From Bacteroidia bacterium (GTDB taxonomy: Bacteria; Bacteroidota; Bacteroidia; SpSt-205): a DNA stretch of 64,000 nt. The position numbers and the translations under genes were made by a program. This document shows positions 1,799 through 63,097 of this stretch, piece after piece; the first letter of the stretch is position 1, and each line of letters opens with the position of its first letter. The notes beneath the pieces were generated by a model. It saw only the letters and a program-made list of their open reading frames with translations, was not told the origin of the DNA and searched no databases. The DNA is taken from assembly GCA_026003235.1 (NCBI GenBank), contig BPGW01000003.1, positions 62,001 through 126,000 on the forward strand, in the 5' to 3' direction.

Positions 1799-1806
1799 TA
1801 CCTTTG
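1799..1806 (+). promoter_or_regulatory. -7 box TACCTTTG of ychF
   Basis: Perfect TAnnTTTG box ending four bases before the ychF ATG. Transcription should start at or within a few bases of the start codon. Confidence 0.7.
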
Positions 1807-1810
1807 TGGC

Positions 1811-2929
1811 ATGGCGCTTGCCTGCGGGATCGTAGGCCTGCCCAATGTAGGCAAGTCTACCCTCTTCAATGCGCTTTCCGGAACAGCCTTAGCGGCTGCG
1901 GCCAACTACCCCTTTTGCACCATTGAGCCCAATCGCGCCATCGTGCCAGTGCCCGATCCCCGGTTGCACACGCTGGCGAGCCTGGTGGCTGCCCAGCACA
2001 AACAGCCCCCGGAAAAAATCACCCCTACCACCCTCACCATCGTGGACATTGCGGGGCTGGTGCGAGGAGCTCACGCTGGCCAGGGCCTGGGAAACCAATT
2101 CCTGGCTCATATCCGCGAAGTGCAAGCTATTCTCCATGTGCTACGGTGCTTTGAGGACCCCGACGTCGTCCATGTAGAAGGCGGCCCGGACCCTTTGCGC
2201 GACCGAGACATCGTAGACACCGAGCTGCAGCTCAAGGACCTGGAGACGATAGATAAAGTTTTGCCTCGCGTAGAGCGAGAAGCGAAGCTGGCGGCGCATA
2301 CGGAGGCGGCTTTCCGGCTGGCTGTCCTGCAAAAGGCCCGAGGCCATCTCTCAGCTGGCCAGAACCTTCGCGCGCTAGCCCTGTCAGAGGAGGAAAAAGC
2401 CGTCCTGGCCGAGCTGCATCTCCTGACCCTCAAGCCGGTACTGTATGTAGCCAACATAGATGAGGGCAGTCTGCCGGGCGGGAATGCGCTTAGTCAGGCC
2501 GTACAGCGTCATGCTGCCGCCGAAGGAGCGGAGTGCCTGGTGCTCTCCGCCGCCCTTGAAGCCCAACTGGCTACGCTTTCCCCCCAAGAGCAGGAGGAGT
2601 TCTTGCAGCTGTACGGGCTGGAGGAACCCGCTTTGCCGCAGCTCATCCGCAAGGCGTATCAGCTTTTAGGCCTAATTACCTTTTTTACAGCGGGACCAAA
2701 GGAGGTGCGGGCCTGGACGATTCGTCGGGGTACGAAAGCCCCCCAGGCCGCAGGGCGCATCCATTCTGACATGGAGCGGGGCTTCATCCGCGCCGAAGTG
2801 ATGGGCTGGGAAGACTATGTGCGGTATGGGGGTGAAGAGGGGGCTCGCGCCGCCGGCCGCCTCCGCTTAGAAGGACGCGACTACGAGATCCAAGAGGGGG
2901 ATGTCGTCTACTTCCGCTTTGCTGTCTAA
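1811..2929 (+). CDS. ychF: Redox-regulated ATPase YchF (Obg-like)
   Basis: A 372-residue P-loop ATPase of the OLA1/YchF family. The Walker A (G1) motif is G-L-P-N-V-G-K-S-T at residues 9-17, the G3 region reads D-I-A-G-L-V, and the C-terminal TGS-like region with G-P-K-E-V-R-A-W-T-I and the F-I-R-A-E-V stretch is intact. YchF binds ribosomes and hydrolyses ATP rather than GTP; it has been linked to translation and oxidative stress. The ATG at 1811 is chosen because it follows the promoter box and begins the conserved N-terminus; the frame is open far upstream but that part overlaps the DUF2007 gene. A convergent hairpin at 2935-2964 follows the stop. Confidence 0.96.
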   Translation: MALACGIVGLPNVGKSTLFNALSGTALAAAANYPFCTIEPNRAIVPVPDPRLHTLASLVAAQHKQPPEKITPTTLTIVDIAGLVRGAHAGQGLGNQFLAHIREVQAILHVLRCFEDPDVVHVEGGPDPLRDRDIVDTELQLKDLETIDKVLPRVEREAKLAAHTEAAFRLAVLQKARGHLSAGQNLRALALSEEEKAVLAELHLLTLKPVLYVANIDEGSLPGGNALSQAVQRHAAAEGAECLVLSAALEAQLATLSPQEQEEFLQLYGLEEPALPQLIRKAYQLLGLITFFTAGPKEVRAWTIRRGTKAPQAAGRIHSDMERGFIRAEVMGWEDYVRYGGEEGARAAGRLRLEGRDYEIQEGDVVYFRFAV

Positions 2930-2964
2930 AAAAGAAGCGGGGGAGCTTAGAGGCTCCCCCGCTT
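2928..2964 (-). terminator. Rho-independent terminator, minus strand
   Basis: A 12-bp perfect stem (2935-2946 with 2953-2964) and a 6-base loop. A run of A at 2928-2933 gives a U-tract for minus-strand transcripts, so it terminates the barrel gene; it also sits just after ychF but lacks a U-tract on the plus side. Confidence 0.8.
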
Positions 2965-2986
2965 AGCTGTGACCAGACTCTGCCGA

Positions 2987-3787
2987 TTAGCGCACGGGGA
3001 GGTTGTAGGTCAGGCCCAGCATAAAGCCTCCCGTAATAGCTTGCGTGGCTGGTCGGGTGTACCCTGCAGGAGCCCGTGTGTATTTCGGCTTGACGCTCCA
3101 GTAGGGGTCTTGCCCTCCCCCGTGGGGGGTGCGATCTATTTTAGCTTCCTTGTTTTCCGTGTCCCCAAAAGCGTAATCCCCCCGGAAGTGGAGCGAAAGG
3201 AGCAGTTCATCGCTTAGCTTGAAGCCTACACCCAGCCCCAACGCAGCCCCCAAAGTAAAGGGCTTGTATATTTTAGCGGTGAGCTCTTCGGTTGTTCCCG
3301 AACTGGTCATTTCGGTGCCTTTTACCTCGGTAGTCGTGCGTTGTCCTGTAGCATAGGTCTCAATTTTCTCGTCTGTATAGCTGAGGAGGAGGTTGGCTTG
3401 GGGGCCGATGAAGAAGCTAAATTGCACGGGGGAGTTGGGGTCGCTGTTGAAGCGCAGCAGGAGGGGGAGCTTGAGGTAGTTGAGGCGAGTTTGGGCCGTG
3501 TAGGTTCCGGCGGTTAGGGTGCCTTTGTACTTCTGGCCCTGGCTGGAGTAGAGCACATCCAGGCCCACGCCGAGGTAGTCGGTGAAATTGTAGGCCACGG
3601 TGAGCCCTCCGGCAAAGCCCCACGTGACCTCGTAGTCTAAGTTAGGGCCGGCGTCGGAGTCGTCCTGGTTGAGGAGCCAGGTATTTTGCGGCAGTAGGGC
3701 TGCACCTACTTTCACGGTACCTTCTTGGGCGTAGCTCCATCCTCCGAGGAGGAGAGCGCCCAGTATGAGAGGTAAGCGGGTTTTCAT
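2987..3787 (-). CDS. Outer-membrane beta-barrel protein (PorT/OMP_b-brl_2 type)
   Basis: A 266-residue protein with a clear signal peptide ending in S-Y-A-Q, followed by alternating hydrophobic strands with Gly/Tyr/Leu (for example G-V-G-L-D-V-L-Y-S, Y-L-K-L-P-L-L-L-R-F, F-F-I-G-P-Q-A-N-L-L-L-S-Y, G-G-F-M-L-G-L-T-Y-N-L). This is the layout of the porin-family 8-strand barrels of Bacteroidota, which include the T9SS protein PorT; whether this is PorT itself or a generic barrel cannot be said. A longer frame upstream is ignored because the ATG at 3787 starts the signal peptide seven bases after a -7 box. Confidence 0.85.
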   Translation of the reverse strand: MKTRLPLILGALLLGGWSYAQEGTVKVGAALLPQNTWLLNQDDSDAGPNLDYEVTWGFAGGLTVAYNFTDYLGVGLDVLYSSQGQKYKGTLTAGTYTAQTRLNYLKLPLLLRFNSDPNSPVQFSFFIGPQANLLLSYTDEKIETYATGQRTTTEVKGTEMTSSGTTEELTAKIYKPFTLGAALGLGVGFKLSDELLLSLHFRGDYAFGDTENKEAKIDRTPHGGGQDPYWSVKPKYTRAPAGYTRPATQAITGGFMLGLTYNLPVR

Positions 3788-3794
3788 ATCGCCG

Positions 3795-3802
3795 CAAAGG
3801 TA
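3795..3802 (-). promoter_or_regulatory. -7 box TACCTTTG of barrel gene
   Basis: Perfect box on the minus strand, seven bases before the ATG at 3787. Confidence 0.65.
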
Positions 3803-3869
3803 CAGTATCTGGCACAACCCCAAGAGGAGGAAGCCGAGGAGGCTTCGGGTGTCCTTGGCATGAAGTTTG

Positions 3870-3877
3870 TACCTTTG
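3870..3877 (+). promoter_or_regulatory. -7 box TACCTTTG of DUF4476 gene
   Basis: Perfect box five bases before the ATG at 3883; divergent from the barrel promoter about 70 bases away. Confidence 0.7.
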
Positions 3878-3882
3878 TAAGC

Positions 3883-5187
3883 ATGTTGCGCACGATGGGC
3901 CTCGCAGGCGGGTTGGCCGCGCTCCTCTTATGGGGGCAAACCACAGGGGACCTCGTAGTGGTCTCTGAGACAGGAGAGCCTTTTCGTCTGTATTTGAATG
4001 GCGAATGGATAGCGGAGACGCCGGTCACCCGAGCCGAAGCTCATGAGGTGCCTCAAGGGCCTCAGCGAGCGACTCTCCATATCTATCCAAGCGAAGGGCG
4101 TGTGGTCCAGCTCAAGAAGACCTTTTATGTGGAGGCTGGATGGGTGGAGTATTATGCCATTCGTCGGGACCGGAAGGGGTACAAGGTTACGCAGTTCAAC
4201 CGGGTACCTCGCGAGGAGTCCCAGCCGCCGGCTTCTCCTGATCTGCCTCCGACGCCCTCTCCATCGCCTGGCGGTCCTCCGCCAGCTGCTGGCACACCTC
4301 CGGCGACCGCGCCCGCTCCAGGCACCCAGACAAACCAACAAACCATCGTCTTCAATCCCACCATTCAGATTCAGACGGGTGGGGGAGGCACGCAGGTAAG
4401 CGGTCAGCCTGCACCCCAGCCGGGTGCTCCGTCGGGGCCGCTTCCGCCGCAGGTGCCCTCTACCGGCTACAGCGGCCCTTGCAACTGCCCTTGGCCCAGC
4501 AGCCGAGAAAACATAGCCCGCATCCACAGCACCCTCCAGAGTGAGCCTTTTGAAGAGACGCGGGTAGAGATCCTCAAGTCCTTCTTGCGCAATAACTGCG
4601 TCTGGACCCGCGACGTGAAAGAACTCTTGGGGCTATTCACTTTTGATGACAATCGGCTGGAGCTGGCGAAGTTCGCTTACGATTATACGCATGACTTGAG
4701 CAGTTATGCGGAGGTGGCGGAGGCGCTCACTTTTACCCACCATCGTCAAGAGCTGGTGCGCTACATCAGTAGCCGTTCGCCGCGCCAGACCTGTGGTGGA
4801 GGCGTGGGGATATACCCACCTGCGGGTGGGCAGCCGCAGGCTCCTGCTGGATTGGGGCAGCCCGCTTCTTCTCAGGGCAGGCCCTGCCAACCCTGCATGG
4901 AAAACGGGGCTTTCCAGCAGGCCCTCCAAACGGTGCGAAACACCGCCAGCGAACCTACCCGCCTCCAGGTAGCTAAACAAATCGCCTCCACCAACTGCCT
5001 TGCTTCGGCGCAAGTTCGGGAGCTGTGCAAGGCGCTCGTATCGGAACCTTCCCGCGTGGACCTGGCGAAATATGCCTATACTCGGGCTTGTGACCCGCAA
5101 AACTACTTCCTGGTCAACGACGCGTTTGTCTCGGTCTCCAGTAAGGAAGAGTTGGCTCGGTATATTCAAGGTCTGGCTGGTCGCTGA
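3883..5187 (+). CDS. Secreted protein with two DUF4476 domains
   Basis: A 434-residue protein. After a signal peptide (about 1-19) comes a beta-rich domain that resembles the PEGA-like N-terminal module often joined to DUF4476 (about 20-110), a long Pro/Gly/Ala-rich linker (about 112-195), then two copies of a helical module (about 200-300 and 340-430). Each copy has the DUF4476 pattern: F-x-x-x-R-x-x-I/V ... C-x-x-x-x-V-x-x-L-x-x-x-F, then L-E-L-A-K-F-A-Y and a final E-L-x-R-Y-I. Each copy is preceded by a cysteine pair (C-N-C; C-Q-P-C) that may form disulfides. DUF4476 has no assigned activity; it is found in periplasmic or surface proteins of Bacteroidota. The gene has its own promoter. 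Confidence 0.85.
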   Translation: MLRTMGLAGGLAALLLWGQTTGDLVVVSETGEPFRLYLNGEWIAETPVTRAEAHEVPQGPQRATLHIYPSEGRVVQLKKTFYVEAGWVEYYAIRRDRKGYKVTQFNRVPREESQPPASPDLPPTPSPSPGGPPPAAGTPPATAPAPGTQTNQQTIVFNPTIQIQTGGGGTQVSGQPAPQPGAPSGPLPPQVPSTGYSGPCNCPWPSSRENIARIHSTLQSEPFEETRVEILKSFLRNNCVWTRDVKELLGLFTFDDNRLELAKFAYDYTHDLSSYAEVAEALTFTHHRQELVRYISSRSPRQTCGGGVGIYPPAGGQPQAPAGLGQPASSQGRPCQPCMENGAFQQALQTVRNTASEPTRLQVAKQIASTNCLASAQVRELCKALVSEPSRVDLAKYAYTRACDPQNYFLVNDAFVSVSSKEELARYIQGLAGR

Positions 5188-5203
5188 AACCCTGCTAAGG
5201 GTT

Positions 5204-7330
5204 TTGGTTGCGCAGGCTGCCCTCCCCTGCTTGCGGGAGGGTTTTTTATGGCCGACGCGGGATACGGTCTACCTTTTGGTGGTTTTTGCGGAAGTGGATT
5301 ACGGGCCTTGTGGGGGGCATGACCCTTACGAAGCCATTTATGGTAGGCCTTGGCCGGTAGGGCCAGAGGGGCGGACCCAAGTACCTTTGGATGCGCACCG
5401 GCTCTTGGATGCTTATCTGGGGCCGACTGCTACCCCGCAGGGTATCCTCACGGCGACATATTGGGAGGCCTCCTTCGGGCAATTCGTGGTGTTGGGGGAC
5501 TACTGGCCTGAGGTGGTGCGAGTTCCCTGCCACCGTCTGCCTGCAAGAGGCACCTACAGCCTGGCTGAAGAAGTAGAGCTGGTTTTGCAGGCCTGGCCGG
5601 AAGGTCCTTTTCGGACGGCCCGCGGGGTGACCTGGCAGGCCTTTGACCGGTGGCAGCTTTTGCCTCAGCAGGCCGGCCTTCCTAAGAAGCGCACCCCCCC
5701 TTCTCCAGGTCCCGACTACAAGTCCCGCTTGGATGGGCTCTTCATCCTTTGGCGCAATTTGGCTTACCGGCTTGGGGCCAAGCCCCCCTTCTCCTGCAAC
5801 TACGGCTTTGGCCTGTGGAGCTGCGATGTGAAGACCCCTTTGGGGCCCTTCACAGGGGGTATTGAGACCGCTTCCTCGTACACCACCTGCCAAACGGCCG
5901 AAGGGGCGGCCATTGGGTTCCTGGTGGAGTTCTTCCACGGTTTGTACGGCGGCAACCACTGGCACACAGCTGGGGGGGCCGGCTTGCATACTTTTCCTTT
6001 TGTGCCGGTGGCTCGGGGCCTGAGCGTGCAGGGGGCGCGACCCGTCTACGCCATCGGGTACGACCGCTGGATCATGGACTGGAAAGCCCCCGGTAAGACT
6101 TACGCCATCAGCGCTTTGGACGAAAGGGGCCAGGAAGTGCCTACCGACCTAACTCAGCCTGCCCGTCCTGAGACGCTGCGGGTGTGGCTGCGCGACTTTC
6201 TCAGTACGGGGGATGCGATTCGGATCCGCTTGCCTTACACGGAACGAGGGGGACCGCAGGTCAAAAACCAGTACCTCTGGCTGGAAAACCGCCGTTTCCG
6301 TTCGCCGCGCGAAGTGGCGCTGGGAAGCTTTCTACCAGGCTGTCCAGATAACCCCTTTCCAGACTATCCAAGAGGGCTGCCTGGCCTCTATGCTTACATC
6401 CAGGTAGGCAAAGACAAGTTGTGCGGTTCGGATATTTACTCCGCTCATCCAGCCCACCCGAATGGCCTTGGAAGCTGGATTTTCCCCGTGACGGCCGAGG
6501 GGAACTATGATTTCGCTTTTCGGCAGGACTCAGCGGGCCGATGGCTCATGGATCGCAGCCGGAGCCTTCCTAACCCTTTCACAGGCCAGAATGACCTGTA
6601 TTTGGGTGTGGACCTGGATGGGAACGGAAGGGTGGACCCTGGGGCGGAAGGGGTGCTCTTGGGATACCGGGAGTGGCGTGGGGACACCGCCGCTAACACT
6701 TGCTTTGGCTGGGGGGATTGGGAGGATGGCTTTAGCGGGCTTACACAGCGGCGCCTTTCTCTGGAGACCAATCCGGCCCCCGTGCCTGTGTACACCCTTC
6801 TCTCAAGCGAAGGGTATCAGGGCCCCTCTTCGGCCCGTCCTGCGGCCTACGACAACCGCACCATTTGGCTAAGCGGGCTGGCCATAGAGATTGTAGCGGA
6901 GCGGCCTGAAGATGGAGCTCTCCTGGTGGAAGTGCGATGGAACGATCGGACGATTCGTCGGCCGGTGCGGTGGTGCGGTCACCTTAGGCTGCCCGTGAAT
7001 CCCTTTTCGCCACAAGAGCCGGCGCTGCGCGTACGCCGCACCACCGTCACCTTGGACTGGGGAGAAAGCCCCACCTACGGCACAGCCCTGCGCTACGACT
7101 CGCTGGGGAAACGATACCTTCTCAGCGATACAACGGTCTGGGTAGTGGATAGTGGGGCGGTGCTTGCGCTAGAGCGGGGGCGCTTGCACCTACGCCGGGG
7201 CAGTCGGCTGGTCCTTCTGTCGGGGGCTCGCCTGGAAGGGGAAGGGGAGCTGCGGTTGGAGCCAGGGTGCCTGCTGGAGGTGGCTCCCGGCGCGCTGATA
7301 GGACCTCGTATCCGCATTCGGAACCGTTAG
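5204..7330 (+). CDS. Large secreted M6-like metallopeptidase homologue, active site altered
   Basis: About 700 residues, mature-protein composition, no T9SS tail recognised. The start is uncertain: there is no ATG in frame near the 5' end; TTG at 5204 keeps most of a hydrophobic leader, while TTG 5276 or GTG 5279 follow a TACCTTTT box (5270-5277) but would remove it. The stretch V-E-F-F-H-G-L-Y-G-G-N-H-W-H-T-A-G-G followed by Y-D-R-W-I-M-D-W-K resembles the H-E-x-x-H-x-x-x-G-G-N-N region and the later [DE]-R-W-x-x-G/D-W motif of M6-like secreted peptidases of this phylum, but the first zinc-binding His is Val. A D-L-D-G-N-G-R-V-D loop (likely Ca2+ site) lies in the middle and a Gly/Leu-rich repeat-like tail ends the protein. 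The stop overlaps the stop of the convergent CDF gene by three bases. Confidence 0.55.
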   Translation: MVAQAALPCLREGFLWPTRDTVYLLVVFAEVDYGPCGGHDPYEAIYGRPWPVGPEGRTQVPLDAHRLLDAYLGPTATPQGILTATYWEASFGQFVVLGDYWPEVVRVPCHRLPARGTYSLAEEVELVLQAWPEGPFRTARGVTWQAFDRWQLLPQQAGLPKKRTPPSPGPDYKSRLDGLFILWRNLAYRLGAKPPFSCNYGFGLWSCDVKTPLGPFTGGIETASSYTTCQTAEGAAIGFLVEFFHGLYGGNHWHTAGGAGLHTFPFVPVARGLSVQGARPVYAIGYDRWIMDWKAPGKTYAISALDERGQEVPTDLTQPARPETLRVWLRDFLSTGDAIRIRLPYTERGGPQVKNQYLWLENRRFRSPREVALGSFLPGCPDNPFPDYPRGLPGLYAYIQVGKDKLCGSDIYSAHPAHPNGLGSWIFPVTAEGNYDFAFRQDSAGRWLMDRSRSLPNPFTGQNDLYLGVDLDGNGRVDPGAEGVLLGYREWRGDTAANTCFGWGDWEDGFSGLTQRRLSLETNPAPVPVYTLLSSEGYQGPSSARPAAYDNRTIWLSGLAIEIVAERPEDGALLVEVRWNDRTIRRPVRWCGHLRLPVNPFSPQEPALRVRRTTVTLDWGESPTYGTALRYDSLGKRYLLSDTTVWVVDSGAVLALERGRLHLRRGSRLVLLSGARLEGEGELRLEPGCLLEVAPGALIGPRIRIRNR
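5220..5247 (+). terminator. Rho-independent terminator after DUF4476 gene
   Basis: A 7-bp GC stem (5220-5226 with 5235-5241), 8-base loop and six T. It lies at the 5' end of the next reading frame, which argues that the next gene either starts after it or is attenuated by it. Confidence 0.7.
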
Positions 7331-9280: not shown

Positions 9281-9284
9281 GCCC

Positions 9285-9292
9285 CGAAAGTA
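9285..9292 (-). promoter_or_regulatory. -7 box TACTTTCG of isomerase gene
   Basis: One mismatch to TAnnTTTG; four bases before the ATG at 9280. Confidence 0.5.
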
Positions 9293-9303
9293 ACAACCTT
9301 TCC

Positions 9304-10465: not shown

Positions 10466-10468
10466 TTA

Positions 10469-10476
10469 CAAAGATA
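10469..10476 (-). promoter_or_regulatory. -7 box TATCTTTG
   Basis: Perfect TAnnTTTG three bases before the ATG at 10465. It is what identifies the true start of the frameshifted gene. Confidence 0.7.
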
Positions 10477-10483
10477 GGGGTTT

Positions 10484-11188: not shown

Positions 11189-11741
11189 AAATGTAGGCTT
11201 CCACCGCCGAAGGCACCCAGTATCGCACCGAGCGGCCTTCGTGCAGGTGCTTGCGGATCTGGGTAGCAGAGAGGTCTATACGGGGCGCTTCAGAAAAGAA
11301 AAGAAGGTGCGGCGAAGCGGGAAGCTCTTCCTCTGAGGTGCCTTTGCGGGGGTAGACCCAGATAGGTCCTTCGCTTAGGAGCCGATGCCCTTCTCGCCAG
11401 GTGGGGAGGGCTGCCGCCGCATCCGCGCCCAGCAGCAGCACAAAAGTGTGCTCCGCATAGCTCCGCTTGAGGTGCTCAAGCGTCTGAATGGTGTAGGAGG
11501 GGCGAGGCAACTGAAATTCCACCTCGCAGGCGCGTACAAGGGGGTCCCCCTGGATGGCCAGCTGGACCATGCGCAAGCGATCAGGGGCAGGAGCCAGCTC
11601 CGTGGGGAGCTTGTGGGGATTGTGGGGGGAGACCACCAGCCATATCTCTTGAAGGTCGGTTTCATTGAGCCAGTAGCGCACCACCGCCAGGTGCCCCAAG
11701 TGAATCGGATTGAAAGACCCAAAGAAAAGGCCGACTTTCAC
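11151..11741 (-). CDS. nadD: Nicotinate-nucleotide adenylyltransferase
   Basis: A 196-residue nucleotidyltransferase. The N-terminal G-S-F-N-P-I-H-L-G-H motif (residues 8-17) is the (H/T)xGH ATP-binding signature, and S-A-T-Q-I-R near the C-terminus matches the I-S-x-T-x-I-R motif. It adenylates nicotinate mononucleotide in NAD synthesis. The start is GTG at 11741, overlapping the gmk stop (GTGA), a translational-coupling arrangement. The pairing gmk-nadD is common in Bacteroidota. Confidence 0.95.
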   Translation of the reverse strand: MKVGLFFGSFNPIHLGHLAVVRYWLNETDLQEIWLVVSPHNPHKLPTELAPAPDRLRMVQLAIQGDPLVRACEVEFQLPRPSYTIQTLEHLKRSYAEHTFVLLLGADAAAALPTWREGHRLLSEGPIWVYPRKGTSEEELPASPHLLFFSEAPRIDLSATQIRKHLHEGRSVRYWVPSAVEAYIYARGLYGTHASA

Positions 11742-12300: not shown

Positions 12301-12308
12301 CAAAGGTA
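12301..12308 (-). promoter_or_regulatory. -7 box TACCTTTG of gmk operon
   Basis: Perfect box five bases before the GTG start at 12295; decides the start codon. Confidence 0.7.
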
Positions 12309-12340: not shown

Positions 12341-12348
12341 TACTTTTG
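12341..12348 (+). promoter_or_regulatory. -7 box TACTTTTG of permease gene
   Basis: Perfect TAnnTTTG six bases before the ATG at 12355. It is divergent from the gmk box, with only 32 bases between the two boxes. Confidence 0.7.
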
Positions 12349-12354
12349 CCCCCC

Positions 12355-13605
12355 ATGAGAGGAGGTTTAGGGTGGCTATCGGCAACCTTTCTCGTGGTGG
12401 CCAACATGATCGGAACCGGCATTTACACCACCACAGGTTTCATTGCGCAAGATCTGCCTGCGGGGATGGGCATCTTGGGCCTATGGGCGTTGGGGGGCTT
12501 AGCGGCGCTCGGAGGGGCGCTGGCCTACGCCGAACTGGCTAAACGATACCCTCGCTCCGGAGGCGAATACCATTTTCTCGGACGCCTGTACCATCCTGTG
12601 GTAGGGTATATGGCGGGGGTGGTGTCGCTGGTGGCGGGTTTTGCTGCGCCCATTGCGGCTTCGGCCTTCGCCTTTGCGGCGTACCTGCCGCTGCCTCTCT
12701 CAGACGTAGGCCGCAAACTGGCGGCCGCTGCGCTTATTCTGGCGCTCACAGGCGTACATACCCTGGGCCTTGTTCGGGGAGCCCGCATCCAGAACGCCTT
12801 CGTCCTCCTGAAGCTTCTTCTCTTGGGAGGTCTGGCGGTCGGCGGAATCCTGATCTCGCCGGAAGCGCCCCAGGAGCTGGCTTGTCCCCGCCTGTCCTTT
12901 CAGACGCTCCAAGCCGCTGCGGTGGCCCTCATTTTCGTGAGTTTTGCTTATTCAGGCTGGAACGCCGCCGCCTACATCATCAGCGAAGTGCCCGAAGCGA
13001 CCCGGATTGTCCCTCGCGCTATCCTTCTGGGCACCCTTGCGGTAGCGGTGTTGTATGTGGGTTTCAATTACGCTCTGCTGCGGCATCTTGCGATTGCCGA
13101 GCTCAGCGGTAAAGTGGTCGTAGGCCGGCTGCTGGCAGAACGGCTGTGGGGAGAGACAGGCCGTCAGCTCTTTGGCTGGGGGGTCAGCTTGGCGATGGTG
13201 TCTTCTGTGAGCGCCATGCTCATGATTGCGCCGCGGGTGGCCAGCGTTATGGGGGAAGATTACCCCCGGCTTGCGGCCTTGGCCCGCCGAAACGCCGCCG
13301 GCGCACCCCTCCAAGCCCTCTTTCTGGTGGCAGGCTTGGCTCTCGTTTTTCTTTTTTCGGCGGCGTTTGACGCCGTGATGAACTACATCGGCTTCACGCT
13401 CTCGCTCTCCGCAGGGCTTACGGTGGCAGGGCTTTTCTGGCGACATCGCCAGGAGAAAAACCTGCCCTGGACCCTGGGGCTCTTCTTCCTGGCCTTGACC
13501 TCCTGGATGATCCTCAATAACCTCTGGGAGAGGCCCCTGGAAAGCTTTGCCGGGCTGCTTACGATAGGATTGGTGGGGACTTCCTACCTTTGGGCACGGA
13601 AATGA
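12355..13605 (+). CDS. APC-family amino acid permease
   Basis: A 416-residue protein with about 12 hydrophobic segments. The N-terminal G-x-x-x-V-V-A-N-M-I-G-T-G-I-Y and the following A-L-A-Y-A-E-L-A-K-R-Y-P-R-S-G-G-E-Y are the classic TM1 and TM2-3 signatures of the amino acid-polyamine-organocation (APC) family, close to LAT/YfnA-like transporters; F-A-Y-S-G-W-N-A-A-A-Y matches the TM6 region. Substrate cannot be inferred. Start chosen at ATG 12355, after the -7 box. The stop overlaps the start of the next gene (ATGA). Confidence 0.92.
   Translation: MRGGLGWLSATFLVVANMIGTGIYTTTGFIAQDLPAGMGILGLWALGGLAALGGALAYAELAKRYPRSGGEYHFLGRLYHPVVGYMAGVVSLVAGFAAPIAASAFAFAAYLPLPLSDVGRKLAAAALILALTGVHTLGLVRGARIQNAFVLLKLLLLGGLAVGGILISPEAPQELACPRLSFQTLQAAAVALIFVSFAYSGWNAAAYIISEVPEATRIVPRAILLGTLAVAVLYVGFNYALLRHLAIAELSGKVVVGRLLAERLWGETGRQLFGWGVSLAMVSSVSAMLMIAPRVASVMGEDYPRLAALARRNAAGAPLQALFLVAGLALVFLFSAAFDAVMNYIGFTLSLSAGLTVAGLFWRHRQEKNLPWTLGLFFLALTSWMILNNLWERPLESFAGLLTIGLVGTSYLWARK
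13585..13592 (+). promoter_or_regulatory. -7 box TACCTTTG inside permease 3' end
   Basis: Perfect box within the last codons of the permease, nine bases before the next ATG (13602). It may be an internal promoter; coding constraint could also produce it. Confidence 0.4.
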
Positions 13606-16042: not shown

Positions 16043-16050
16043 CAAATGTA
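16043..16050 (-). promoter_or_regulatory. -7 box TACATTTG of VWA gene
   Basis: Perfect TAnnTTTG, four bases before the ATG at 16038, in the 36-base gap after the DUF5686 gene. Confidence 0.65.
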
Positions 16051-18373: not shown

Positions 18374-18381
18374 CAAAAGTA
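18374..18381 (-). promoter_or_regulatory. -7 box TACTTTTG of DUF5686 gene
   Basis: Perfect box ten bases before the ATG at 18363. Confidence 0.6.
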
Positions 18382-18405: not shown

Positions 18406-18413
18406 TACCTTTG
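18406..18413 (+). promoter_or_regulatory. -7 box TACCTTTG of methyltransferase gene
   Basis: Perfect box four bases before the GTG at 18418; only 24 bases separate it from the divergent DUF5686 box. Confidence 0.7.
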
Positions 18414-23825: not shown

Positions 23826-23833
23826 CAAAGGTA
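23826..23833 (-). promoter_or_regulatory. -7 box TACCTTTG of LTA synthase-like gene
   Basis: Perfect box six bases before the GTG at 23819; decides the start codon. Confidence 0.65.
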
Positions 23834-24838: not shown

Positions 24839-24871
24839 TTTGCATGCATCCGTTTTTTTTCCCTACCTTTG
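24839..24871 (+). promoter_or_regulatory. -33/-7 promoter (TTTG ... TACCTTTG) with distant start codon
   Basis: TTTG at 24839-24842 and a perfect TACCTTTG at 24864-24871, 21 bases apart, with a T-rich spacer. This is the best full -33/-7 promoter in the window, and the only one whose next start codon is far away (153 bases). Confidence 0.7.
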
Positions 24872-26905: not shown

Positions 26906-26913
26906 TACCTTTG
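26906..26913 (+). promoter_or_regulatory. -7 box TACCTTTG
   Basis: Perfect box five bases before the ATG at 26919. Confidence 0.7.
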
Positions 26914-26918: not shown

Positions 26919-27310
26919 ATGCGCTACCCGATTCTTCTCCTCTCTCTGCTGGGTAGTGCGCTCTGGGCTCAAATTAAAGAACCTCGCTTAGAGGAGCCGC
27001 AGCAAAGCTGGGTTTTTCACAAAGCTGGGTTTTTCACGTAGAAGGGGACCTCTCTCGGCTTTCTGTGGTTTCAGCTGAGCTGCCGCCTCGTTTCTCTCAA
27101 GTCAGAAAAGCCTATCCTTGTGAAAGAGGAGGGTATCTCGTTATTCTTCCTACCCAACCCTTACCTGCTACCCGCTATGAGGAGGTACAGGCTGCTCTTA
27201 CTGCTTTCCTTCAGGAGCAGGGGCTCACTGTTTACCCTAAGCCTTCGGCGGCTGTGATGGAACTCGCGCAGGTTTGTGACCAACTCCTAAAAGCTCTTCT
27301 CCATCCTTAA
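26919..27310 (+). pseudogene. Small secreted protein gene broken by a 17-bp tandem duplication
   Basis: The ATG at 26919 opens a signal peptide (M-R-Y-P-I-L-L-L ... A-L-W-A-Q) but the frame stops at 27041. Immediately before, the 17-mer at 27004-27020 is repeated perfectly at 27021-27037. Removing one copy restores a single 124-residue frame to the stop at 27310, with S-W-V-F-H-V-E-G-D-L-S-R-L-S joining the two halves. The restored protein is a secreted 105-residue domain with one Cys pair (P-C-E-R; V-C-D-Q) of unknown role. As given, translation yields only a 40-residue peptide. The gene has an intact promoter, so the disruption is probably recent, or reversible by slippage. Six bases before the next surface gene. 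Confidence 0.8.
27004..27037 (+). repeat. Perfect 17-bp tandem duplication
   Basis: Two identical adjacent copies of AAAGCTGGGTTTTTCAC (27004-27020 and 27021-27037). 17 is not a multiple of three, so it shifts the reading frame of the host gene. Confidence 0.97.
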
Positions 27311-34015: not shown

Positions 34016-34023
34016 TACCTTTG
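34016..34023 (+). promoter_or_regulatory. -7 box TACCTTTG
   Basis: Perfect box ten bases before the ATG at 34034. Confidence 0.6.
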
Positions 34024-37107: not shown

Positions 37108-37115
37108 TAAATTTG
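37108..37115 (+). promoter_or_regulatory. -7 box TAAATTTG of M43 peptidase gene
   Basis: Perfect TAnnTTTG four bases before the ATG at 37120. Confidence 0.65.
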
Positions 37116-40779: not shown

Positions 40780-40787
40780 TATATTTG
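40780..40787 (+). promoter_or_regulatory. -7 box TATATTTG of M1 peptidase gene
   Basis: Perfect TAnnTTTG four bases before the ATG at 40792. Confidence 0.65.
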
Positions 40788-43061: not shown

Positions 43062-43069
43062 TACCTTTG
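43062..43069 (+). promoter_or_regulatory. -7 box TACCTTTG of ribosomal protein operon
   Basis: Perfect box eight bases before the GTG at 43078. It overlaps the first codons of an alternative ATG start at 43057, which argues against that start. Confidence 0.7.
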
Positions 43070-52766: not shown

Positions 52767-52777
52767 ACATCCACCTT

Positions 52778-54275: not shown

Positions 54276-54404
54276 GGTGCTAAGTTGCGGGTGCTTTTCG
54301 CGTGTCTGCAAACCACGCATCAATGGAATGTTACAGGGGGGTCGGGGCAGAAGTGCGGTGTTATGGCCGTAGCGAGGCGATTTTGTTACATGGGGGTGCC
54401 CTTT

Positions 54405-55850: not shown

Positions 55851-55853
55851 TTA

Positions 55854-55861
55854 CAAAAGTA
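55854..55861 (-). promoter_or_regulatory. -7 box TACTTTTG of helical-repeat gene
   Basis: Perfect TAnnTTTG three bases before the ATG at 55850. Confidence 0.65.
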
Positions 55862-55869
55862 ACAATCCC

Positions 55870-55877
55870 TACCTTTG
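55870..55877 (+). promoter_or_regulatory. -7 box TACCTTTG of TPR lipoprotein gene
   Basis: Perfect box seven bases before the ATG at 55885. Only eight bases separate it from the divergent box at 55854-55861. Confidence 0.7.
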
Positions 55878-55884
55878 CGAGCCG

Positions 55885-58219
<2,335 letters not shown>

Positions 58220-58236
58220 GAGACAAAACCTACCCT

Positions 58237-58272
58237 AAAAAAGTACGGGGGCCTTCGCTGGGAAGGCCCCCG
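58237..58272. terminator. Bidirectional hairpin terminator
   Basis: An 11-bp stem (58246-58256 with 58262-58272), 5-base loop. On the minus strand it is followed by six U (from A at 58237-58242), so it ends the T9SS gene; for atpDC the U-tract is weaker. Confidence 0.82.
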
Positions 58273-58294
58273 CTTGGTTTTACTGAGGCTTTCC

Positions 58295-59698
58295 TCAGTG
58301 GAGGATAGTGACCTGGAAGGCGGCTTGTACGGCTTCGCTGCGCGCCCGCAACAGATACGTGCCGGCAGGCACATCGGCCACATCCACCGCAAGCACGTTT
58401 TCGCCGGCTTCCAAAGGACGCACCGGCCAGACCTTCACCGTCCGCCCATCCAAGCTGTGGAGAACAAGCTGGAGGGTGGAAGCTGCAGGCGTGCGCACCT
58501 TCAGGTGGAAGCAATCCGTGGTAGGGTTAGGATACGGCGTGAGAATCTCGCCATTTCCCCCTCGGATCCATACACCCGTTACAATGTCTTGGGCGTATAC
58601 AATGGGAAAGGCCACAAAGTTGAGACCTTGGTCGATCGGCGGACCAAAAAGGTGGGTGGGAAGCCAATCCGGTAAGGAAGAACTCAAACTGGAAGGCGTA
58701 CCATAGAAGTCTCCACCGCTTGCTGTGGTGTCGTAAAACGCCCATGAGATCAGGCTTCGTCCTAAACGGACCGTGTCTCCATTAAAGCAAGGGTGGGAAG
58801 GGATGGGACTAGCCGATGAAGGCCCGTACAGGAAATAAATCGTGTCCGTGAGGGAGTAGGTGTTGATGTTGTACCGTTCCGTGGAGACGACTACATAGTA
58901 AGAGGCGCTATCTGTGATATCCAGCGGGGTGGGGAAGTAAACAAAGTCAAAGAGTTCTGTAATGCTGCTTGTCGCAGGAGGGCACTGTGGGCCGGTGTTA
59001 TTCAGGAGCAGGTTGCCGAGCTGGACCTGATCGAGGGTTTTGGATACACTGCGGACAGAGGTAGGGTTGGGTATAGTACCCTGACGTGCTGGAGTGTAGA
59101 AGGGGGAACCGTAACTGTAGGGGCTCGCCTGATAGAGGGCATAGGTGTAGGTGTATCCACTGGCACCTTGGCCGGGGCTGGGATCGGCAAGAGAGGGGGA
59201 ACAGGGGTTGGCAGGCAGGTAGTTCAACAGCAGCAAGGCAATGCCTTTGATGGTCACGGTGCGGTTCACTCCATCTTTGTCCGGCGTAATATCATACCGC
59301 TCGGCGATAGCCCCGTCGTAGTAGGGTGCAATCCCTAGTGAAGATACGCCTGGACCGAGTTTAAAGCGCTCATTGCTGACGAGGAGGTAAGCCGCTGCCT
59401 GCTCCAGCGAGTCAAAAAAGGTTCCTACGCAGGCGGCTGGAGGGTTGGAGCGGGTATTGGGGCCGGTGCCGTTGCTGATGAGGGTGTCGCCCGCATAGTC
59501 TGGGTCGCTTGCACCATTTGGCACAGTGGTAAAGTCCTGGTTAGGTTGGAGCCAGGGCAGGGAGGTTGTACGCAGCGCCGGAGCGGAGTTTGGCATACGC
59601 AGGGATACCGTGCCCCGAGGCGCAAAGCGACTCAAGTCAAGTTGCACAGACTGAGCCCATAAGAGGGCTCCACCGCAGAGTAAGGTTAGGGTTTTCAT
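58295..59698 (-). CDS. T9SS-sorted secreted protein of unknown function
   Basis: A 467-residue protein. Signal peptide M-K-T-L-T-L-L ... L-L-W-A-Q, then a beta-rich body with D-S-L-E-Q-A-A-A-Y-L-L-V and two Y-Y-V-V-V-S-T-E-R-Y-N / Y-L-L-V-S-N-E-R-F-K strands that may mark internal duplication, and a type A sorting domain (about 385-467; L-T-P-Y-P-N-P-T-T-D-C-F ... V-P-A-G-T-Y-L-L-R-A ... F-Q-V-T-I-L-H). No catalytic motif seen. The start follows a -7-like box by seven bases. Confidence 0.83.
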   Translation of the reverse strand: MKTLTLLCGGALLWAQSVQLDLSRFAPRGTVSLRMPNSAPALRTTSLPWLQPNQDFTTVPNGASDPDYAGDTLISNGTGPNTRSNPPAACVGTFFDSLEQAAAYLLVSNERFKLGPGVSSLGIAPYYDGAIAERYDITPDKDGVNRTVTIKGIALLLLNYLPANPCSPSLADPSPGQGASGYTYTYALYQASPYSYGSPFYTPARQGTIPNPTSVRSVSKTLDQVQLGNLLLNNTGPQCPPATSSITELFDFVYFPTPLDITDSASYYVVVSTERYNINTYSLTDTIYFLYGPSSASPIPSHPCFNGDTVRLGRSLISWAFYDTTASGGDFYGTPSSLSSSLPDWLPTHLFGPPIDQGLNFVAFPIVYAQDIVTGVWIRGGNGEILTPYPNPTTDCFHLKVRTPAASTLQLVLHSLDGRTVKVWPVRPLEAGENVLAVDVADVPAGTYLLRARSEAVQAAFQVTILH

Positions 59699-59705
59699 AT
59701 CGGCA

Positions 59706-59713
59706 CGAAGTTA
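59706..59713 (-). promoter_or_regulatory. -7 box-like TAACTTCG
   Basis: One mismatch to TAnnTTTG; seven bases before the ATG at 59698. Confidence 0.45.
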
Positions 59714-59752
59714 GTGGAAAGGAGCCATACGGAGGGTGATTCCCAACCTTAG

Positions 59753-61654
59753 TTATCTATTCCATTCCCATTGAAGGTACAGGCTCCGGCCTGGGAAGGG
59801 TATACCGCCAGGGATCCATTGGCGGAAGCTACTCAGGTGGGGTTGGTAGGAAGCATGTAGGAGATTTTGTACGCCTACCGTCAGCCGCCGCCACCGAAAG
59901 GCAGCGTGTACCAGGAGATACCCGGGGGTAGGAACCTTCGTCTGATACAAACCGTACACCCGAGTCTGGGGAGCGTAGAGGAGCAGCTCCACAAAAGGTT
60001 TCCATGCCTTCCGAGCGGCTTCGTAGGCGACTCGTATCCGAAGAGGGGGTATCCGAGGTAAAAAGCGACCTTCCCGAGCATAGGAACCTATCCACTGACC
60101 TTGTACCCATCCTACCCCCAACGACCATCCTTGCCGCTGTCCTTCCAGTTCGGCTCCGTAGAGGAGGGCTTGGCGACTTCCCCATTGGAAGGCGGCCCCT
60201 ACAGCGGTAGGCAGGGTATCCGGTAGCCTTTCTACAAAGAGGTAAGCGGGAAAGTACTGCACAAAGGACCGAATGGCGAAAGCCGGCCAAGGGGAAAGGT
60301 CTCCTTCTAAGGTCCAGGCTACTTCTGAAGGGAGGAGGGGGGAACCGATTTCATACCGGCCAGCCCCTGCGTGAAAGCCATGGGCCCACAGTTCGACCGC
60401 CTGGGGAAGGCGAAATCCCCGGCTCAGACGCAGCCCAATGGGACTGCGATAGTAAGCCACCTCCATCGCCCAGGTGAGAAAGGTACGGGAGGGGCCTCCT
60501 TGCAGAGAACGGCTGCGAGCCCCGTGCACCCGAACCCCTACCAAGAGCGTGGTTGAACCCCATTCGTGCGTATGACGCCCCCATACACCCATTTCTGTAT
60601 GGTGTACCCGGGGCAGAAAAGGAGACGAGCCCGCGTCGTGGGTTTCGCGCCAAAAACCCGTGAGCCCCACCTCCGCGCTTTTTCTTACCTTGATGAGGCC
60701 TTCCCAGTCCACGCGGCTGGTGCGCAGCAGTACGTCCGGCGTAATGGGGCTGCTGCTATACTCTGCCCGGACATTGTGCTGCAGGCTCAAAGACAGCAGG
60801 TACGCCGCAGAGACCCTCTGCATAGACAACCCCGCAGAACGGATGTGTTGGAAGGGAAGATCCCGCATAAAGGCGTAAGCCGTGCGAGCGGGGATGGGCT
60901 GGCCCGTGGAAGGGGAAGTCCAGGTGGCGGTGCTCGGATCGTAGCTTGTTGAGGGCAGTCCCACTTCTTCGTCCGCACCCAAAGCCAGTATTGTCCATAC
61001 GGAGGTGGGTGAATAAAACTGGGCCGCAGCATACCCGTACCGGGCCCGGAGGCCGCTATTCCAGACGTACCCTTTTCCTGGCGCACAGTAATTGTGATAG
61101 CGCCGATCAAAAAGCTCGCCCCAGACCCTTCGGGCTTTTTGTTTGTGGGCGAAGGCGGCTTGGAGATGACTTCCTAAAGGATTGGTGAGGAGCGTGAGCG
61201 CCCCCCATCCGAGCGACGAGTCAGGGCACTGAGGGCGCACCTTCAGGACCCCTCCCAGCGCATCGCTTCCATAGCGAACCGACTGGGGCCCCAGGTGCAC
61301 GGCTACCTCCGTGTATTTCCAAGCTGGCGGAGCTTCAAACCCGTGGTCTTCGCCCCAATAGGCTCCTTCACGCGGCATGCTCCCAAAAAGCCAGAGAATC
61401 CGGCTGTAGCTATGCCCTCGCAGGACCGCACGCCCACTGAAGGCCCCCGTCGCCATCCACTCCACTCCCGCTGCACTTTGAAGCGCTTCTTGGAGGGAAA
61501 ATACAGGCCTGGGAAGGCTTGGAATCCAGCGCCCTGACAAAAAGACGGAGCGCTCCCCATACAAACGAACCGTATCTATCGTGACGCTATCCAGGGACAC
61601 GCCTTGGCTCCAAAGGAAAAAGCCCCACGCGCCCCCCATAAGGAGAAGACGCAT
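59753..61654 (-). CDS. TonB-dependent receptor
   Basis: A 633-residue outer-membrane protein. Signal peptide ends near W-S-Q; a plug domain follows (L-Q-E-A-L-Q-S-A-A-G-V, R-G-H-S-Y-S-R-I-L-W-L-F, V-A-V-H-L-G-P-Q-S-V-R-Y-G-S-D-A-L-G-G-V-L) and a 22-strand-type barrel rich in aromatic residues, ending in L-Y-L-Q-W-E-W-N-R. The plug motifs resemble vitamin B12/iron-complex receptors; there is no SusC-type N-terminal extension and no SusD partner, so import of a metal complex or cofactor is more likely than glycan uptake. The ATG at 61654 follows a perfect -7 box. Confidence 0.9.
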   Translation of the reverse strand: MRLLLMGGAWGFFLWSQGVSLDSVTIDTVRLYGERSVFLSGRWIPSLPRPVFSLQEALQSAAGVEWMATGAFSGRAVLRGHSYSRILWLFGSMPREGAYWGEDHGFEAPPAWKYTEVAVHLGPQSVRYGSDALGGVLKVRPQCPDSSLGWGALTLLTNPLGSHLQAAFAHKQKARRVWGELFDRRYHNYCAPGKGYVWNSGLRARYGYAAAQFYSPTSVWTILALGADEEVGLPSTSYDPSTATWTSPSTGQPIPARTAYAFMRDLPFQHIRSAGLSMQRVSAAYLLSLSLQHNVRAEYSSSPITPDVLLRTSRVDWEGLIKVRKSAEVGLTGFWRETHDAGSSPFLPRVHHTEMGVWGRHTHEWGSTTLLVGVRVHGARSRSLQGGPSRTFLTWAMEVAYYRSPIGLRLSRGFRLPQAVELWAHGFHAGAGRYEIGSPLLPSEVAWTLEGDLSPWPAFAIRSFVQYFPAYLFVERLPDTLPTAVGAAFQWGSRQALLYGAELEGQRQGWSLGVGWVQGQWIGSYAREGRFLPRIPPLRIRVAYEAARKAWKPFVELLLYAPQTRVYGLYQTKVPTPGYLLVHAAFRWRRLTVGVQNLLHASYQPHLSSFRQWIPGGIPFPGRSLYLQWEWNR

Positions 61655-61658
61655 GGGA

Positions 61659-61666
61659 CAAAGGTA
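61659..61666 (-). promoter_or_regulatory. -7 box TACCTTTG of TonB receptor gene
   Basis: Perfect box four bases before the ATG at 61654, in the short AT-rich gap after the upstream T9SS gene. Confidence 0.7.
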
Positions 61667-61716
61667 AGCCAAAAAATTTTTCTACTCGCCAAAAATAGGG
61701 CTAACCAGGAGCTGCC

Positions 61717-62970
61717 CTACGGGGTCAGATACAGTCGGAGGGCGCTGGTGCCCGCGCGCAGGATGTATACACCGCTGGGTAGGTCCGCAGGCAGATGGAA
61801 TAGGGGTTGGCTGCCTGAGACCTGGCCTTGCCAGAGGGGGCGGCCCAGCACATCGTACAGCTCAAGGGTCAGCTTGTCTGTGGGGGCCAGGCAGCTGAAT
61901 TCCCCTTCCCTTAGCTGGCTCCGGTACACAAAGCATCCCGGACGAAAAGCCCCTTCCAATGAACTGGCTGTACTGTATACAAGGACCCACCTCGTAAGGG
62001 AAGTATCCACGCTGGCGGTTTGGCGCAAAGGAACCGCGTGCAGGGGTTTTTTCAGCCGGCCTAACGGCCCCAGGGAGCTTCGCAGGATGAGTCCCCCCCG
62101 CTTGGACAAGGATAGCTCGGTGGCTTCGCTCAGACGACCCTGGGAATCGTATGAATAAGACTTGATAGAGCGCCTATTGCTAGTTATGCTGCCTTGCCCA
62201 TCGTAGTCAATAGACTCAGAGGAGTCTTTGACTACTCGGCCTCCATCGTAAAAGAGATACCTATAGGTGACGGACGAGTCTTGGAAAGAATCCCGTTGAG
62301 AGACCAGCTCATCTGGCGTCCTGAAGCAAAAAACTATATCCCAAGAGATTTGGCTAATAGGCTCCACAAGGGTGTCACAGGAGCCGCTCTTGCGAGCGTA
62401 GGCAAAAAGCAAAGACCATTGGGGAGGCGTAGAGGTGGTGTCCCACTCATACCACCGCAGCGTATCCCCAATGTGGCTTCTCTTGTAGAGAGATGGGTAA
62501 GGTAAGTATCTTTCCTCGTTAATGATAAACATGAAGCTGTTCAAGAGATCCCATGCCGTTTGCCCGAAGCCTACGCCTTCAATTCGGAGGTAGGGAACCC
62601 AGGCTTGCGAGGCAGAATTCTGCCCCTCTATAATAACTTCTGTGCGCCTGGAATCAGGATAGCTGAACCTGAAACGAAGTGCAGAGGAGTCTAACGAATT
62701 TTGATGATTGAAATAATATTCTTTTGTTGTCCAGTATGCGATTTTTTGTGCACTCAATTGGAGGGAGTCCACTGCTCGTAGTTGCCAGGTGCTGGGGCCT
62801 GTACGGTAGTAAAGCTCGCGCACGGTAGGGTTGCCTCGGCTGCGCAAGACGTACATCTCAGTGAAGTCTCCGATGGTACCTAAGCCGTCCCATTTCCATA
62901 CGGTGTCCGGTAAAGGCGGCAGTTGGGCCTTCAGGAAGGCCACTATGACGGCTACGAGAAGCGTTCGCAT
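61717..62970 (-). CDS. T9SS-sorted secreted protein, YD-repeat-like
   Basis: A 417-residue protein. Signal peptide M-R-T-L-L-V-A-V-I-V-A-F-L-K-A-Q, a beta-rich body with S-Y-S-Y-D-S-Q-G-R-L (YD-repeat-like), Y-R-Y-L-F-Y-D-G-G-R, and a type A sorting domain (L-T-L-E-L-Y-D-V-L-G-R-P-L-W ... L-P-S-G-V-Y-I-L-R-A-G). The composition is richer in Ser/Asp/Lys and the DNA more AT-rich than its neighbours. It shares layout and strand motifs with the frameshifted T9SS gene at 9304-10465. A weak AATATTTG lies 15 bases before the ATG. Function unknown. Confidence 0.8.
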   Translation of the reverse strand: MRTLLVAVIVAFLKAQLPPLPDTVWKWDGLGTIGDFTEMYVLRSRGNPTVRELYYRTGPSTWQLRAVDSLQLSAQKIAYWTTKEYYFNHQNSLDSSALRFRFSYPDSRRTEVIIEGQNSASQAWVPYLRIEGVGFGQTAWDLLNSFMFIINEERYLPYPSLYKRSHIGDTLRWYEWDTTSTPPQWSLLFAYARKSGSCDTLVEPISQISWDIVFCFRTPDELVSQRDSFQDSSVTYRYLFYDGGRVVKDSSESIDYDGQGSITSNRRSIKSYSYDSQGRLSEATELSLSKRGGLILRSSLGPLGRLKKPLHAVPLRQTASVDTSLTRWVLVYSTASSLEGAFRPGCFVYRSQLREGEFSCLAPTDKLTLELYDVLGRPLWQGQVSGSQPLFHLPADLPSGVYILRAGTSALRLYLTP

Positions 62971-63089
62971 GGAGGTATGCTGTAGCAAATATTGTGCCGG
63001 TCAATCTGGCAAGCTTTTTGGGCAGGCCTCCTCATTTAGGGTGGGGAAGCTATGTGGAAGAGGGCGATAAACCTTTGGCTAAAAATCGC

Positions 63090-63097
63090 TACCTTTG
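63090..63097 (+). promoter_or_regulatory. -7 box TACCTTTG of FHA gene
   Basis: Perfect box four bases before the ATG at 63102. Confidence 0.7.

Follow-up and report, generated by a model that had tools for sequence, protein, structure and literature searches.

Bacteroidota are a standard example of bacteria that make no use of the Shine-Dalgarno (SD) sequence and yet provide their mRNAs with leaders. We analyzed a 64-kb stretch (the window; contig C3, positions 62001-126000) from the genome of a Bacteroidia bacterium, in which boxes of the type TAnnTTTG lie just upstream of ATG and GTG codons, so near that many mRNAs are predicted to begin at or next to the start codon. The closest described promoters are those of sigma-ABfr in Flavobacterium johnsoniae, which resemble ours in the box itself (TAHHTTTG), in the avoidance of G at its N positions and in an AT-rich -18 region (PMC6847099). 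The difference lies in the distance to the gene: transcription in F. johnsoniae starts 4-5 nt after the box (PMC6847099), and the box stands tens of nt before the start codon, whereas here it stands 4-5 nt before it.

A second point of comparison is leadered initiation without SD, described for F. johnsoniae with its Kozak-like leaders. Here, too, internal genes of the genome show no SD enrichment, although the anti-SD is kept in the congener G403 and bS21 in 12 of 13 genomes of the order. However, leaders longer than 10 nt make up 87% in F. johnsoniae among genes for which a promoter is probable, leaving ~13% with at most 10 nt (PMC6847099), whereas boxed first genes here leave almost no room for a leader. 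Other mapped members of the phylum give similarly low values, with ~3.7% of 5' untranslated regions (UTRs) below 10 nt in Bacteroides thetaiotaomicron (PMC7366714) and 5.5% leaderless in F. psychrophilum (PMC9723704), so that published short or absent leaders in Bacteroidota amount to ~4-13%. An earlier reading of the window, made from its letters alone (the sequence-only reading), had called leaderless initiation on this scale not the textbook picture for the phylum, which is right for these members with mapped 5' ends. The open-access literature that we searched contained no description of a Bacteroidota lineage in which leaderless expression dominates; most subscription papers and all bioRxiv preprints lay outside that search.

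Leaderless genes have been characterized in Actinobacteria and Deinococcus-Thermus, where a TA-like box ~12 bp before the start places the transcription start site (TSS) on the start codon and no SD is needed (PMC3160421). Both the recognition word and the phylum differ from ours. The same source lists leaderless genes in one of 37 Bacteroidetes/Chlorobi genomes, where they made up 2.4% of genes and carried a TANNNT-like signal. On the evidence of the sequence, the pattern described here is real, genome-wide and common to the family, and we consider it very probable that boxed first genes are expressed from Bacteroidota-type promoters through predominantly leaderless or near-leaderless transcripts.

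Spacing of the box and the start codon

The window belongs to a genome of 2.06 Mb in 11 contigs, 82% complete and with a G+C content of 59%. The pattern was tested in the window, in a 464-kb sample made up of the window and 400 kb of contig C1, in a genome-wide search, in 12 other genomes belonging to the order and, across the phylum, in 395 genomes. The 13 genomes of the order comprise 12 from the family and one, G395, from a sister family. We searched for the exact word TAnnTTTG or the refined word TAHHTTTG, and defined the gap as the number of nt between the end of the box and the start codon. Gene starts came from a simple codon-usage caller that made no use of the box (399 genes in the 464 kb, 15 with TTG). 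Genes at most 15 nt from the previous gene on the same strand were classed as operon-internal, and the remaining classes as first-like.

On the two strands of the window the exact word occurs 33 times, against 17.3 expected (sd 4.1), a count that 0 of 100 shuffles reached. ATG or GTG follows at a gap of 3-10 nt in 21 of the 33 (two at gap 3, seven at 4, three at 5, two each at 6, 7 and 8, one at 9 and two at 10), and 19 of these 21 starts open reading frames (ORFs) of at least 147 codons. The remaining 12 words include 10 within called genes and two that are intergenic (24864, + strand; 61690-61697, - strand). The sequence-only reading had counted 28 boxes, 27 of them at 3-10 nt; the exact word does not reproduce these figures, and a total of 28 is plausible if variants are counted. 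Allowing one mismatch adds 16 candidates 3-8 nt before an ATG or GTG that opens an ORF of at least 100 codons, among them the listed ORF starts 29125, 30349, 59698 and 9280. All seven spacings quoted in that reading are correct (ychF 4, gmk 5, methyltransferase 4, M43 peptidase 4, rplM 8, ATP synthase subunit 8, TonB receptor 4).

The spacing scan that had been proposed was run, as pattern counts for the whole genome and gap by gap in the 464-kb sample, where a sharp peak appears at 4 nt, followed by 5 nt. Genome-wide, TAnnTTTG-N(3-10)-ATG occurs 485 times, compared with 40 for the reversed word; for N(11-18) the counts are 132 and 49, and some of these longer cases are a second ATG behind a box already counted. 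At exactly four nt the count is 190 (reversed word 2, an excess of 188), against 16 for N14-ATG. Within the 464 kb, ATG was found at gaps 0 to 8 in 2, 4, 1, 6, 53, 19, 10, 10 and 8 cases over a background of ~3. GTG occurred 14 times at gap 4, and TTG neither there nor at gap 5; the gap-4 counts in the congener G403 were 41 ATG, 16 GTG and one TTG. Starts with ATG or GTG rather than TTG are typical of leaderless mRNAs, and the leaderless genes of Actinobacteria and Deinococcus-Thermus use these two codons.

In the same sample, an ATG or GTG at 3-10 nt that opens an ORF of at least 60 codons follows 129 of 237 TAnnTTTG words, compared with a pooled 28 of 375 when the letters of the word were rearranged in four ways (3/67, 10/114, 6/104 and 9/90). 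Chance from base composition is excluded by the rearranged words and by the longer gaps. Among first-like genes, 43 in-frame starts lie at gap 4, compared with four at gap 3 and 0 at gaps 0-2, and over gaps 3-10 there are 81 in-frame hits and 11 off-frame. A TSS 4-5 nt after the box would cut into any start codon nearer to it than about 4 nt.

These data bear on the proposal that the boxes are promoters whose true start codons lie farther downstream, which would give the mRNAs ordinary leaders. Start calls from codon usage are imprecise, as the 15 TTG starts among 399 genes indicate; 26 genes have only an alternative start at 3-10 nt from the box, and five of the 21 window boxes fall within called genes. 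Against this stand the gap-4 peak, present in in-frame starts and absent off-frame, the 78 genes whose starts were called without the box and coincide with it, and the joint conservation of box and start in 13 of 17 orthologs. Protein matches point the same way: the Pfam guanylate kinase profile aligns from residue 1 of the GTG-started gmk, and in YchF the match to the GTPase domain begins at residue 5. We regard downstream starts as highly improbable. The residue-1 match therefore supports the GTG start of gmk, one of several GTG starts that the pattern had been said to fix; for the sulfatase (then described as LTA synthase-like), rplM and methyltransferase genes, boxes do precede the GTG.

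Promoter character and spread of the box

The box is, as judged from its genomic placement, a promoter, because it stands before 9/9 first tRNA genes and is rare before operon-internal genes. The scanned stretches hold 13 tRNA genes, of which one at a stretch edge was dropped. An exact box lies 4-23 nt before the mature 5' end of every first tRNA gene (gaps 9, 4, 8, 23, 8, 8, 8, 7 and 12), and the three tRNAs directly behind another tRNA have no box. The base composition of the box and its surroundings also has the marks of the F. johnsoniae promoters. G is found at the two N positions with frequencies of 0.07 and 0.04 in 134 boxes near starts, compared with 0.30 and 0.23 in 103 others; by this mark, boxes away from starts are mostly chance occurrences, because G is not avoided there. 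In boxes near starts, box positions -7 and -6, which correspond to -19 and -18, have A+T frequencies of 0.65 and 0.68, against a genome background of 0.41. We saw no -33 TTTG element, that is, no motif near box position -21; its lack was not counted as excluding, since this weak element is described as "much less evident" in F. johnsoniae too (PMC6847099). The primary sigma factor that recognizes such promoters in Bacteroidota lacks region 1.1. Nine of the 13 genomes in the order gave a C-terminal RpoD match, each of them short of the curated cut-off, and the congener RpoD-like protein measures ~290 aa from its likely start, which by length alone leaves no room for a long N-terminal region.

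An upstream-side neighbor could be assigned to 397 of the 399 called genes, and 78 of these 397 have the exact box at 3-10 nt. The share depends on gene class: 34 of 102 divergent genes, 25 of 62 that follow a same-strand gene at 16-50 nt, 10 of 74 at more than 50 nt, and nine of 159 operon-internal genes. When TAHHTTTG is taken as the box and alternative starts are admitted, 98 of the 238 first-like genes are boxed, and 79 of the 98 have an in-frame ATG or GTG at 3-10 nt. The description of the pattern as near-universal therefore holds for first-like genes with a recognizable box and not for all genes, given that 140 of the 238 first-like genes are without TAHHTTTG and 159 of the 397 genes are operon-internal.

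A position weight matrix (PWM) trained on 87 own boxes, whose training set overlaps the own test set but not the G403 set, returned the same gradient. Scores of at least 8 at gaps 3-8 were found here in 42 of 60 well-supported divergent genes (5.8 in shifted windows), 36 of 86 same-strand genes beyond 15 nt (4.8) and eight of 102 internal genes (3.0); in G403 the corresponding figures were 37 of 54 (5.5), 29 of 55 (5.0) and four of 38 (1.5). Fourteen own divergent genes score below 5, and inspection showed three of these to have a box at gap 10-12 and two to lie directly behind a tRNA. Of the 24 genes that carry the one-mismatch variant TAHHTT[ACG]G, 16 have an in-frame start 3-10 nt behind it; each of the other one-mismatch variants accounts for fewer, one to five genes. 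No clear alternative box motif emerged at genes without TAnnTTTG.

The word could instead be a signal for translation, such as an AT-rich non-canonical ribosome binding site (RBS) or a site for S1. Its tight placement relative to the start codon would suit such a role, and AT-rich non-canonical RBSs have been described in FCB-group genomes (PMC9581028). However, tRNA genes, which are untranslated, carry the box, while operon-internal genes, which need translation as well, rarely do (9/159 by exact word, 8/102 by PWM), and in named relatives the word stands tens of nt ahead of ychF. The tRNA promoters and the rarity at internal genes rule the box out as a translation signal, and we give this idea scarcely any credence.

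Divergent pairs boxed on both sides have their starts 32-136 bp apart here (15 pairs, 12 below 80 bp) and 35-304 bp apart in G403 (17 pairs, 14 below 80 bp). At such short distances many of these promoters must overlap, which may force co-regulation of the two genes.

We compared 61 orthologs with aligned N-termini between the genome's own genes and sampled stretches of the congener. Of 17 that are boxed here, the congener also has a box in 13, in every case at gap 4 or 5 and with differing flanks. rpsU, which is described as bearing a strong SD in F. johnsoniae (PMC10783764), has the box at gap 5-6 in all four congener loci fetched, from among 12 genomes with a match. Farther away the placement changes. 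ychF has gap 4 here, and 17 of 19 named Bacteroidota loci contain the word within 120 nt upstream, where the nearest copy lies at 17-108 nt and no copy at 3-10. Among the 80 ychF matches listed, identity does not exceed 59%.

Boxed first-like genes have the box at 3-10 nt in 67 of 80 cases in G403, 13 of 24 in the sister-family genome G395, and five of 17 and four of 13 in two more distant genomes. In the named loci, which are ychF neighborhoods rather than random genome samples, the figure is one of 17 for Cytophagales-like and none of seven for Flavobacteriales members (1/24 in total), compared with 79 of 98 here (Fisher p ~2e-12). The N4 peak is found in all 12 family genomes examined (133-223 hits, against 5-28 at N14), and it is hardly there in G395 (50 against 35). 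G395 has an intermediate appearance, its 13 boxed genes at gap 3-10 being spread over 4-8 without a sharp 4. In the survey of the 395 phylum genomes, where N4 excess was read by eye and not computed, the own excess of 188 was the largest, followed by 99 (G154, 4.2 Mb), 95 (G041, 2.2 Mb) and 91 (G359, 3.1 Mb). Modest N4 excess appeared in many other genomes of the survey, and low-level leaderless promoters are therefore probably common across Bacteroidota.

Predicted leaderless expression

Our proposal starts from what can be read in the DNA: a box that has promoter character, lies at a short spacing from the start codon and is conserved in congeners, and operon-internal genes of this genome that are not enriched in SD words. 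In this genome and family, transcription units would largely begin at sigma-ABfr-like promoters, with a -7 box TAHHTTTG, mostly TACCTTTG, placed 4-5 nt and at most ~10 nt upstream of the start codon that opens the first gene. As in Flavobacterium, RNA polymerase would initiate 4-5 nt beyond the box, so that mRNAs would start at the A or G of ATG or GTG, or with a leader of a few nt, and would be recognized through the 5'-terminal start codon and not through a leader. Translation of downstream cistrons would be re-initiated by coupling where stop and start codons overlap, and some genes, such as rpoD, would retain a conventional leader. When the box-to-TSS spacing of F. johnsoniae is combined with a box at 4-5 nt, most boxed first-gene mRNAs are expected to carry 5' UTRs of between 0 and a few nt. 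The spacing peak, the promoter behavior and the conservation of the box lend support to the leaderless expression that had been suggested for the window.

Several observations weigh against this reading. The TSS position is taken from a distant relative, and the 5' ends are predictions from sequence. Purines make up 0.53 of the fifth bases after the box here (gaps of at least 6 nt, n = 36) and 0.82 in G403 (n = 39), and the left edge of the spacing peak is less clean in G403, with three in-frame starts at gaps 0-2, seven at gap 3 and 27 at gap 4. Boxless genes are numerous: TAHHTTTG is missing from the searched zone of 140 of the 238 first-like genes, and TAnnTTTG from the region between -150 and +70 of 100 out of 191; miscalled starts and degenerate boxes may explain part of them. 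Among the 21 window starts, two (26919, +; 10465, -) open just 40 and 53 codons, and five of the boxes (13585, 18406, 43062 and 63090, +; 18374, -) fall within called genes, because the caller picked a start upstream of the box or because genes overlap. Conservation is incomplete, as four of the 17 boxed orthologs have no box in the congener and seven of 44 orthologs that are boxless here have one there. Internal genes of G403 show a weak SD excess (8 against 4 of 58; GAGG, 5 against 0). Neither the genome's own rpoD nor its 16S gene was found in the sequence available for this 82%-complete genome. In three congeners, and unlike most boxed genes of the family, rpoD keeps a leader that is AT-rich and contains GGAG ahead of ATGGGAATG or ATGGGCATG, the box lying ~40-50 nt upstream in two of the three; a possible reason for this leadered state is autoregulation. 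Finally, boxes away from starts are also AT-enriched at -19/-18 (0.53/0.61), and some of them may therefore be leadered promoters.

The last point touches on the possibility that leaderless mRNAs are made while upstream promoters supply leadered isoforms, so that leaderless translation would not dominate in the cell. Tandem boxes exist (61690-61697 above 61659-61666), many first-like genes are without an exact box, and boxes far from starts have some AT excess at -18. On the other hand, boxes away from starts do not shun G at the N positions, there is little space for further promoters between divergent starts that are 32-78 bp apart, and the spacing spectrum of the 464 kb has no second, leadered peak up to 40 nt. 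We judge this possibility unlikely.

Proximity might also be a by-product of genome compaction, with promoters placed at the minimum distance that keeps the start codon whole and without selection for leaderless translation. The sampled genomes of the order measure 1.4-2.3 Mb (several of them are incomplete), divergent intergenic regions are very short, and the gap distribution has a tail at 6-10 nt; the mode, however, is sharp at 4 instead of forming a broad short range. Compaction alters the cause and not the mechanism and is compatible with leaderless expression as we propose it; we regard it as a possible but less favored origin of the pattern.

The translation signals of internal genes are of interest for the same proposal. 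At the genome's own operon-internal genes we found no SD enrichment (9 against 8 in the control, of 117) and no A-rich signal. A 4-nt overlap with the previous gene occurs at 50 of these 117 genes and at 15 of 58 in G403, which fits termination-reinitiation. Bacteroidetes reportedly do without SD use at both internal and first genes (PMC6728339). The 16S 3' tail of G403, GGATTACCTCC, keeps the anti-SD CCTCC, and bS21 is present in 12 of the 13 genomes of the order. Loss of the anti-SD or of bS21 is excluded as a cause, as both are kept in congeners, and the leaderless state therefore did not need their loss. The G403 16S 3' end reads GGATTACCTCCTTT, with the canonical CCTCC and with GGATTA where GGATCA is usual.

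In its widest form, the proposal is that the family has largely replaced leadered initiation by 5'-terminal AUG or GUG and by overlap coupling, with anti-SD and bS21 kept, few leadered genes such as rpoD, and divergent genes on overlapping promoters within 32-78 bp. We hold this wider form to be about evenly balanced between true and false. If promoter position sets translation starts in these organisms, Bacteroidota are able to adopt predominantly leaderless expression from their own kind of promoter, just as Actinobacteria and Deinococcus-Thermus have done from theirs. The evolutionary path becomes testable through the graded spread, from 79/98 and 67/80 in the family through 13/24 in G395 to lower values in other sampled genomes. 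The box could also serve as a start-codon predictor in these uncultured genomes, where RBS-based callers have little to go on.

Individual boxes in the window

Pfam confirms eight of the products named here: YchF, guanylate kinase, L13, M43 peptidase, methyltransferase, the ATP synthase subunit, sulfatase and the TonB receptor. The box TACCTTTG at 1799-1806 (+) precedes the ATG of the ychF GTPase gene (1811) by 4 nt. It recurs at 3795-3802 (-), 7 nt before the ATG of an outer-membrane beta-barrel protein (3787), and at 3870-3877 (+), 5 nt before that of a DUF4476 protein (3883). The gmk box, TACCTTTG at 12301-12308 (-), lies 5 nt before GTG 12295; the divergent amino-acid permease gene (ATG 12355) has TACTTTTG at 12341-12348 (+), gap 6, and the two starts are 59 bp apart. 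A 455-aa protein without a Pfam match (ATG 13602) follows TACCTTTG at 13585-13592 (+) by 9 nt, this box lying within a called gene, and a 366-aa protein, likewise without a Pfam match (ATG 16038), follows TACATTTG at 16043-16050 (-) by 4 nt. In the second divergent pair, 54 bp apart, both boxes fall within called genes: TACTTTTG at 18374-18381 (-), gap 10, serves the DUF5686 gene (ATG 18363), and TACCTTTG at 18406-18413 (+), gap 4, the methyltransferase gene (GTG 18418).

The sulfatase gene (GTG 23819) has TACCTTTG at 23826-23833 (-), gap 6. Farther on are TACCTTTG at 34016-34023 (+), gap 10, before a 343-aa protein without a Pfam match (ATG 34034); TAAATTTG at 37108-37115 (+), gap 4, before an M43 peptidase with CUB domains (ATG 37120); and TATATTTG at 40780-40787 (+), gap 4, before an M1 peptidase (ATG 40792). 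For rplM, TACCTTTG at 43062-43069 (+) stands 8 nt before GTG 43078 and within the called gene, the caller having taken ATG 43057 upstream of the box. Another two divergent starts, 55850 and 55885, are separated by only 34 bp, an interval that holds both boxes: TACTTTTG at 55854-55861 (-), gap 3, for a 481-aa protein and TACCTTTG at 55870-55877 (+), gap 7, for a 176-aa protein, neither with a Pfam match. The ATP synthase alpha/beta-family subunit (ATG 56451) has TACTTTTG at 56435-56442 (+), gap 8. TACCTTTG at 61659-61666 (-) precedes the ATG of the TonB-dependent receptor (61654) by 4 nt, with the second, intergenic box at 61690-61697 (-) in tandem upstream. An FHA-domain protein (ATG 63102) has TACCTTTG at 63090-63097 (+), gap 4, within a called gene.

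Three loci depart from this arrangement. At 24864-24871 (+) a perfect TACCTTTG promoter word has no start nearby, and the next gene (ATG 25025) begins ~150 nt on. No Rfam family scored over threshold in the window, at this site or elsewhere; the box possibly serves a long or structured leader, or an unannotated small RNA. TATCTTTG at 10469-10476 (-) lies 3 nt before ATG 10465, whose ORF (region 10465-9304, -) starts MRYLFLLGS and stops after 53 codons, with a 364-codon ORF downstream in another frame, possibly reflecting a frameshift or an assembly error. At 26906-26913 (+), TACCTTTG stands 5 nt before ATG 26919, which opens a 40-codon ORF with a signal-peptide-like start; an 81-codon ORF follows (26919-27310, +), and the two are possibly one split gene or two small genes.

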